Of a stretch of 64,000 nt of DNA, positions 15,021-31,124 are shown in pieces; the first letter of the stretch is position 1; each line of letters begins with the position of its first letter. A program made the translations under genes and the position numbers. The notes under the pieces are model-generated. The model did not search any database. It was not told where the DNA came from and was given only the letters and a program-made list of their open reading frames with translations. The DNA comes from Candidatus Bathyarchaeota archaeon. GTDB lineage: Archaea > Thermoproteota > Bathyarchaeia > TCS64 > PIYN01. The DNA lies in assembly GCA_003601775.1 (NCBI GenBank), contig PIYN01000012.1, positions 1-64,000 on the forward strand, read 5' to 3'.

Positions 15021-16187
15021 TCAGGCGGAGTAGAGGACTTTTCCGTCTATCAGGACCATCTCCACCTTCGACTTGATGTTCAGAGGGTCTCCGCTGAGGA
15101 TCCTCAGGTCGGCGTCCTTCCCCCTCTCGATGCTCCCCACACGGTCAGCGATCCCCAGGATCTCAGCGGGGTTGATGGTCATGGCACGGAGGGCGACGTC
15201 CCTCGGCAGGCCGTTCTTCACGTAGAGGGCGGCTACAAGGGGCAGCAGCCTGATGGCCTGTGAGGTCGCGTCCGTTGTGATGGCGATCTTGACCCCGGCG
15301 TCATGTAGGACCTTCGCCGTCTTGAAGCTCATCTCCCGCATCTCCCAGGTCCCCCTCCTCATCGCCGGACCGTGGACGGCTGGTATCCCCTTCCTCGCCA
15401 CCCACTCCGCGACCCTGTGCCCCTCCGTCGCATGGTGCCAGACGACCTTCACCCCGAACTCCTCCGCAACCCTCACCACCGACGCGATATCATCGGCCCT
15501 GTGGGCGTGGGCGAGGAGGGGGATCTCTCCCCGTAACACGGGCTCCAAGGCCTCGAGCTTCAGGTCCTTGTCGGGCATCTTCGAGGGGTCCTCCTTCGCC
15601 ACCTCCTTCTTCCTCATATAATTCTGGGCCTTCACCAGCCATTCCCTCAGGATCCCCGCGATGCCCATACGGGTTGATGGTGTCTTCTTCTGGGTCTGGC
15701 CGTAGACTCTCCTCGGCATATCCCCGAAGGTGATCTTCATCCCTGAGGGATTCCTCACCACCATCTCGTCCACCACGGTCTTTGGAGCCGTCTTCAGGAC
15801 GGCGGCGGTCCCCGCGATGACATTCCCGCTCCCAGGGAGGACTTGGATCGTGGTGACGCCCGTCTCGAGGGCAGCTCTCAGGCCCCCCTCATCCGCGTTC
15901 GCCTTGATCCCATCGATGACGCGCATCTGGGGTGTAGCGGGGTCCGTCGTCTCATCGCTGTCGGCTCCGGCCCACCCTATGCTCTCCTCCACGATGCCCA
16001 GGTGGCACTGGGCCTCGACCAGACCCGGCATCACGACCTTTCCGGTCGCGTCGATGACCTCGGCACCCTCTGGAATCTGGACATCCACGCCTACGTCCAG
16101 GATCTTCCCATCCTCTATGAGGATTGTCCCCCCCTCGATGGTCCCCTGGGTTATCGTGAGGATCTTACCACCCTTGATGGCTAACAC
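15021..16187 (-). CDS. Imidazolonepropionase-like amidohydrolase (paralog 1)
   Basis: [53 protein letters not shown]; ~60% similar to downstream paralog by eye. Confidence 0.85.
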   Translation of the reverse strand: MLAIKGGKILTITQGTIEGGTILIEDGKILDVGVDVQIPEGAEVIDATGKVVMPGLVEAQCHLGIVEESIGWAGADSDETTDPATPQMRVIDGIKANADEGGLRAALETGVTTIQVLPGSGNVIAGTAAVLKTAPKTVVDEMVVRNPSGMKITFGDMPRRVYGQTQKKTPSTRMGIAGILREWLVKAQNYMRKKEVAKEDPSKMPDKDLKLEALEPVLRGEIPLLAHAHRADDIASVVRVAEEFGVKVVWHHATEGHRVAEWVARKGIPAVHGPAMRRGTWEMREMSFKTAKVLHDAGVKIAITTDATSQAIRLLPLVAALYVKNGLPRDVALRAMTINPAEILGIADRVGSIERGKDADLRILSGDPLNIKSKVEMVLIDGKVLYSA

Positions 16188-16193
16188 GTCCCA

Positions 16194-17372
16194 TCACCTC
16201 CCAACCAGCACCTCTCCATCCACGATGACCATCTCCACCTCCGTCATGGGGTCGAAGGGGTCTCCGCTGAGGATCCTCAGGTCGGCGTCCTTCCCCCTCT
16301 CGATGCTCCCCAGACGGTCTGCGACTCCCAGGATCTCAGCAGGTGTAATCGTCACGGCCTTGAGGGCTGCCTCCCAGGGAAGACCATGTTTCACGGCCAT
16401 GGCGGCACAGAGTGGAAGGAATCTTATCCCACTCCCCACGGCATCCGTCTGGATCGCGAACTTGACACCTGCCTCGTGAAGCACCTTCGGAGTCTCGAAG
16501 TTGAGTTCCCTCATCTCCCACTTCGGCCTCCCCATGAGGGAGGGGCCCCAGACGGCGGGGACACCCTTTGATGCGATCCACTTCGCGATCCTGTGCCCCT
16601 CCGTCGCGTGCTCCCAGGAGAGGCTGATGCCAAACTCCTCCGCGATCCTCACAGCCGTGGCGATATCATCGGCCCTATGGGCATGGACCCTCAGCGGGAT
16701 CTTCCCCTCCAAGACGAGTTGAAGGGTCTCCAGCTTCAGGTCCTTGTCGGGCATCTTTGAGGGGTCCTTCTTCGCCAGCTCCTTCTTCCTCATATAGTTC
16801 TGGGCCTTCACCAGCCACTCTCGGAGGAGGGCAGCGACGCCCATCCTGGTGGCGGGCATCCTCTTCAATCCTTGACCATAAACCCTGCGTGGGTTCTCCC
16901 CGAGGGCGACCTTCAGGCCCGAGGGGTTTCGAAGGACCATCTCGTCCACCGTCGTCTTCGGGGCCGTCTTCACCACCACCCCGGTCCCCCCTATGACGTT
17001 GGCGCTCCCCGGGAGGATCTGGGCCGTCGTGACGCCCGTCTCGAGGGCCGCTTGAAGGCCCTTCTCATCGGCGTTCGCCTTTATCGCATCGATCGCCCTC
17101 AGATGGGGCGTGACGGGGTCAGTTGCCTCGTTCCCATCGCTCCCAGCCCATCCGACGCTCTCCTCGATGATTCCTATGTGACAGTGGGCCTCGACCAGAC
17201 CTGGCATCACGACCTTTCCGGTCGCGTCGATGACCTCGGCACCCTCCGGAATCCGGACGTCCCTTCCAACCTCGACGATCTTGCCCCCCTCGACGAGGAT
17301 CACGCCCTCCTCGATGATCCCCTTCGTCACGGTCAGTATCCTACCACCCTTAATGGCTAACAATCGCATCAC
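16194..17372 (-). CDS. Imidazolonepropionase-like amidohydrolase (paralog 2)
   Basis: [53 protein letters not shown]; 6 bp from paralog 1. Confidence 0.85.
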
Positions 17373-30278: not shown

Positions 30279-30655
30279 GTGCCGCGGTCGCTCATCCGAC
30301 GCCTCCTCTCCCGGGATTCAGCGCCTCTATTAGTGGTCCTCCTGTGGTCCGTGGCCCTCCTCCTCTCGACCTCCACGACCACCCACCCCACCCTGCGCTG
30401 GCTCATCTCGATCCCCTATCTCGTCTTCGCTCCGGGGTACGGCCTCCTCACCCTCCTGAAGGGGACGAGGGAGATCGATGTCGCGGAGGGCCTCGCCCTG
30501 AGCCTCAGGGTCGATGTGAAGGTTGGGGATCTCTCTACCCCTCCCCCAAGCAGGGCCTCGCCGTCACCCCTCCCCACGATCTGGAGGTCACGGCCTTTAC
30601 CTTGGGGGCCCTCGCCGCCTCAGTCTACCTGAGACGCCTTAGGGGGGCGCGGTGA
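30279..30655 (+). pseudogene. Disrupted DUF1616-like membrane protein
   Basis: Frame 1 gives TM segments ...LISIPYLVFAPGYGLLTLLKGTREIDVAEGLALS then the 92-bp foreign segment and a stop; the plausible TM C-terminus DLEVTAFTLGALAASVYLRRLRGAR* continues in another frame to 30655. Confidence 0.6.
30494..30585 (+). repeat. 92-bp perfect inverted repeat, copy A
   Basis: Identical to the reverse complement of 30818-30909. Confidence 0.97.
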
Positions 30656-31124
30656 CGTTGACCCATAGCTGGTTCCATATCCCCGTGTATCGGTAGCTCC
30701 CTGAGGTGTTGAGGATATAAAGCTCGAAGATGACCCTCCTGTCCAAGCCCGTCTCGTTCAGGGTCAACTCCAATTGAGAGGTCCTCTGGCCTCTGGGGGG
30801 GACCGTGAACTCGAGGGTCCAGATCGTGGGGAGGGGTGACGGCGAGGCCCTGCTTGGGGGAGGGGTAGAGAGATCCCCAACCTTCACATCGACCCTGAGG
30901 CTCAGGGCGCCGTCGTTCTGGACCACGACATAGAGCAGGAAGGGCTCCCCCGCCGTCACATTCCCAGGGTAGAACCTCGGGTCAGCATTCCCCCTCTCGT
31001 TCAGGATGTAGAGGGAGAGGACCCTCTTCTCCCCGGTGCTGCCGAGCCACGTGTTGATGAGGCCCGCTGAGATGGCTAAGATGGCGATGATGATGCTGAT
31101 GGAGACGATTGTATCCTCATCCAT
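30639..31124 (-). CDS. Membrane-anchored extracellular protein resembling DUF1616 C-terminal domain
   Basis: N-terminal TM (VSISIIIAILAISAGLINTW) then LSLYILNERGNADPRFYPGNVTAGEPFLLYVVVQNDG... Confidence 0.6.
   Translation of the reverse strand: MDEDTIVSISIIIAILAISAGLINTWLGSTGEKRVLSLYILNERGNADPRFYPGNVTAGEPFLLYVVVQNDGALSLRVDVKVGDLSTPPPSRASPSPLPTIWTLEFTVPPRGQRTSQLELTLNETGLDRRVIFELYILNTSGSYRYTGIWNQLWVNVTAPP
30818..30909 (-). repeat. 92-bp perfect inverted repeat, copy B (inside the intact minus-strand gene)
   Basis: Reverse complement of 30494-30585, no mismatches by eye. Confidence 0.97.

Follow-up and report, generated by a model that had tools for sequence, protein, structure and literature searches.

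In a 64,000-nucleotide stretch of a Candidatus Bathyarchaeota genome (positions 1 to 64,000 of contig PIYN01000012.1, assembly GCA_003601775.1; hereafter the window), two convergent DUF1616-type genes carry the arms of a perfect 92-bp inverted repeat. We consider it likely that this repeat is the scar of a real and recent mutation, in which the middle of the plus-strand gene (the N gene) was replaced by an inverted 77-nt copy (92 nt with junction homology) of the convergent DUF1616-C gene (the C gene), some 320 bp away. As read from family alignments and codon usage, the N gene has lost a conserved native segment and its frame is broken, and the copy has presumably inactivated it; both the mechanism and the recency of the event are what we infer from the features below.

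30279 to 30503, plus strand: native 5' part of a DUF1616-N-type gene, with two hydrophobic stretches, ending in ...EGLALS (family profile as far as ALS; codon model)
30494 to 30585, plus strand: copy A, a 92-bp inverted copy within the DUF1616-N gene (exact repeat, taking the place of the relatives' conserved segment)
30504 to 30580, plus strand: putative foreign part of copy A, 77 nt, the remaining ends being junction microhomology
30581 to 30655, plus strand: native 3' end of the DUF1616-N-type gene (LEVTAFTLGALAASVYLRRLRGAR, stop), out of frame with the 5' part (codon model)
30586 to 30817, no strand: spacer between the arms, 232 bp
30639 to 31124, minus strand: intact DUF1616-C-type gene coding for a 161-aa protein, its extracellular domain accompanied by a single TM helix (match to PF07760 positions 151-301; alignment with relatives)
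30818 to 30909, minus strand: copy B, native coding sequence for residues 73-102 (ALSLRVDVKVGD...PTIW; aligned with seven relatives)
30496 to 30510, no strand: palindrome CCCTGAG-C-CTCAGGG, present in both copies

The inverted repeat and its two host genes

The reverse complement of 30818-30909 is identical to 30494-30585 at 92 of 92 nucleotides, which confirms the exact repeat and 232-nt spacer described in an earlier, sequence-only reading of this DNA. The arms are free of third-position changes, and similarity ends immediately beyond them on both sides, the flanks outside the 92 nt being dissimilar. Taken as a single strand, the region has a folding energy of -175 kcal/mol (-83 for shuffles), a value that only restates the presence of the repeat. 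The window contains no other inverted repeat of at least 20 nt. Across the assembled genome (47 contigs, 1,527,575 bp, the window being contig 20), no other perfect inverted repeat within 3 kb exceeds 28 nt, the next longest measuring 28, 26 and 24 nt; in related single-contig genomes from the same order, of which two stretches of 400 kb each (800 kb in all) were scanned, the longest inverted repeat is 19 nt. We reject a chance match, given that the repeat is unique in the window and the genome and that nothing comparable occurs in the 800 kb of related genomes.

Against the Pfam family PF07760 (gathering cut-off 31.6 bits), the minus-strand ORF matches positions 151-301 and the plus-strand ORF positions 2-43, with scores of 20.8 and 20.3 bits that both fall under the cut-off; an NCBIfam search gave no match for either ORF. 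Despite these scores, we call the two ORFs DUF1616-like halves on the strength of their alignment with relatives; the genome holds no further piece of DUF1616. In same-class relatives (L005, L007, L008, L009, L010 and L011), the N and C parts are adjacent or fused, the C protein having an extracellular domain with a single TM helix, and the N protein TM helices that are often preceded by an additional N-terminal domain. Where separate, the two genes run in the same direction in L008-L011 and diverge in L005; in the window they converge. The L007 fusion (485 aa) runs C then N, the reverse of the Pfam order. Among the genomes searched, this genome alone represents its family, and a search for close relatives by way of the adjacent HdrB-like gene returned as best match a 56% identical sequence in the Bathyarchaeota MAG CP070759, with no adjoining DUF1616 pair. 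Going by this match and by gene content, the genome is archaeal and probably belongs to the Bathyarchaeia.

The minus-strand protein is colinear with seven relatives across the copy-B stretch, with small gaps only and the conserved VxVKxG motif in place, so that copy B is native; by this alignment copy B is the source and copy A the copy, and the reverse direction is rejected on the same colinearity. The extracellular domain in which the earlier reading placed copy B does not belong to an unrelated gene: the neighbour corresponds to the family's own other half. The palindrome CCCTGAG-C-CTCAGGG lies where it had been placed; as copy B has it too, it is native to the source gene rather than a product of the junction, and it loses the role of fold-back evidence that had been given to it.

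The plus-strand gene and its displaced tail

The plus-strand gene follows its family up to ...EGLALS, and a codon-usage model trained on long ORFs of the genome scores this 5' part as coding in the frame of 30279 (+17.3). The relatives then continue with [IVL]GLSLAxxPLxGLxLNYTPWGIRL..., and copy A begins exactly where they keep the conserved GLSLAxxPLxGLxLNYTPWGIR segment; in the aligned N-family members the passage between the ALS motif and the last helix is free of indels, and it is this segment that is missing in the window. The ORF from 30279 stays open for 117 aa and reads ...GLALSLRVDVKVGDLSTPPPSRASPSPLPTIW, a peptide identical to residues 73-102 of the minus-strand protein, and the tail TAFTLGALAASVYLRRLRGAR, with its stop, lies in a different frame; translation thus bears out the shared peptide and displaced tail claimed before. 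As read in the plus-strand gene, the inverted copy gives LRVDVKVGDLSTPPPSRASPSPLPTIW, followed in another frame by a hydrophobic, arginine-ended tail, LEVTAFTLGALAASVYLRRLRGAR, which overlaps the 3' end of the minus-strand gene by 17 bp.

For this tail, the codon model gives +5.1 in the frame of 30584 as against -27 and -16 in the other two plus-strand frames, and with moderate confidence we take the original sequence to resume past the copied segment, 30581-30655 appearing to be coding in a frame different from that of the 5' part. An N-family profile run with placeholder residues for the missing part detected no signal in the tail, in any frame or at any length, so the native segment is bounded only loosely, at about 69-84 nt. 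By the codon model, then, about 69-84 nt of native sequence would have been replaced by 77 nt, a nearly length-neutral exchange that nonetheless shifted the frame, with the native C-terminal helix resuming out of frame. The colinearity of the neighbour, the relatives' conserved segment and the codon usage of the tail all support the proposal that an inverted copy of this neighbour took the place of part of a DUF1616 gene. If the event is real, gene callers will list the 117-aa hybrid as a protein.

Artefact, switch or old arrangement

A more prosaic origin, to which we give a minor but appreciable share of belief, is that a chimeric molecule from library preparation or whole-genome amplification, or a wrong repeat resolution or gap closure during short-read assembly, inserted the inverted copy, the gene being intact in the organism. 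Gaps of 3-92 nt filled with N interrupt the draft genome, in which two longer runs of N may represent masking, and contig ends coincide over exactly 91 nt in two pairs; these overlaps and gaps point to a probable de Bruijn assembly of short reads at k = 91. The 92-nt repeat equals k+1, and its sitting at the k limit is an uncomfortable coincidence. The contig ends in question are those of C11/C30 and C22/C41, other ends sharing 46, 36 and 26 nt. The near-equal length of the replaced segment is also what a sized gap would give. Against this, assemblers and gap fillers require about 20 nt or more of shared sequence, for which the joins of ~13 nt and ~5 nt are too short, and an artefact would require two coordinated, independent wrong joins; gap filling by a long overlap is rejected, since ~13 nt is about the upper limit for the left overlap. 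Chimeras of multiple displacement amplification (MDA) resemble the present case in being local and mostly inverted, with junction homology of 2-21 nt (PMC1855051), but they consist of a single chimeric junction, without a return to the original strand after 77 nt, and they are frequent, at about one junction per 22 kb of amplified DNA (PMC1855051), as against one event in 1.53 Mb here. Frequent local inverted junctions are thus not what this genome holds: among perfect inverted repeats within 3 kb, the 92-nt pair alone exceeds 28 nt. On the same count we reject a genome-wide fold-back artefact.

The perfect arms would also suit an invertible switch, in which recombination between them would invert the 232-bp spacer, each gene receiving the 3' end of the other; copies A and B read in the same frame, and a flip would give an in-frame fusion of the 5' part of the N gene with the remainder of the C domain. 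The common frame is, however, explained by the ALSL codons shared at the junction, the flip would halve the extracellular domain and deprive the intact gene of its tail, the genes adjoining the arms include no recognised recombinase, and the relatives are without such an arrangement. We regard such a switch as very improbable, and a live one, alternating in part of the population between the broken N gene and an in-frame N-C fusion, as more improbable still. Equally hard to credit is an old, functional arrangement with the 117-aa plus-strand protein as its real product. That the plus-strand ORF stays open over its whole length speaks for it, but the arms are identical, with no third-position change, the segment conserved in the relatives is absent from the plus-strand gene, and codon usage downstream is non-coding in the frame that is read (-27). 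Of the three origins offered by the sequence-only reading, template switching with return (or short-patch recombination) is the one we favour, the invertible segment finding no support and the amplification or assembly chimera being disfavoured.

Mechanism and comparison with known systems

Judged from the residues of the family, the native N gene would have shared with the incoming copy a left junction of ~10-13 nt (CGCCCTGAGC, perhaps up to CTC) and a right junction of ~5 nt (about CTGGA). The left homology is unlikely to have been much longer than ~13 nt, since at the following residue most of the family has glycine (GGN) and the copy has AGG (arginine). In the mechanism we propose, a 3' end in the N gene would have used CGCCCTGAGC(CTC) during replication or repair to pair with the complementary strand of the C gene, copied about 77 nt on the opposite strand some 300-400 bp away, and returned to its own template at the short match CTGGA, nearly at the expected register, an excursion of four-point order 1-4-3-2. 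The same scar could be left by a short single strand from the C gene annealing at both microhomologies (short-patch double illegitimate recombination). A precedent for this is SPDIR in Acinetobacter baylyi, reportedly described by Harms et al. in 2016, in which a short intragenomic segment is said to replace chromosomal DNA of similar length between two microhomologies in a non-reciprocal manner. SPDIR is known from bacteria and the present case is in an archaeon, with a similar replacement between two putative microhomologies. Template switching with return and short-patch recombination are inseparable from sequence; the length-neutral replacement fits SPDIR at least as well, and a source that is close by and inverted suits template switching and SPDIR alike.

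Short-range template switches, as formalised in the four-point model of Loytynoja and Goldman, share with the present case a nearby inverse-complement copy, the return to the template, the order 1-4-3-2 and a single inverted repeat. Their defining trait, an exact inverse complement of nearby sequence, is found here over 92 of 92 nt, with the source 232 bp off. In a survey of great apes, the 1-4-3-2 type was a majority pattern and yielded a single inverted repeat, the copied stretches had a median of 12 nt and a maximum of 128 nt, and just 5.5% of the switch events left the length unchanged (PMC7954356). The copy described here thus lies far above the median of the surveyed switches, yet inside their range, and its host is an archaeon. 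Quasipalindrome-associated switches in E. coli and yeast (PMC7202029, PMC8604942) are alike in that a polymerase switches between inverted stretches to produce a perfect inverted repeat and clustered coding changes, but they homogenise an existing imperfect inverted repeat, whereas here prior similarity is evident only over ~10-13 nt.

What counts against the preferred reading, a real template switch or short-patch recombination, is the size of the copy, which at 77-92 nt is well beyond the published 12-nt median, and the rarity of unchanged length among such switches, together with the finding of no close relative with an uninterrupted gene at this locus among the genomes searched, the match of the repeat to the apparent k plus one and the failure of the N-family profile to see the tail. 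The event is most likely a known kind of mutation, unusually long, and no new system. Provided that it is real, the event has left a clean footprint, very recent and of unusual length, of inverted template switching (or of short-patch recombination) in an uncultured archaeon, where it overwrote an entire helix-sized coding segment in a single step.

Elsewhere in the window, at 15021-17372 on the minus strand, lie two tandem, highly similar genes of 388 and 392 aa, which we label amidohydrolase-like by eye. They share exact stretches of up to 55 nt at a spacing of about 1,176 nt, and represent a tandem gene duplication.
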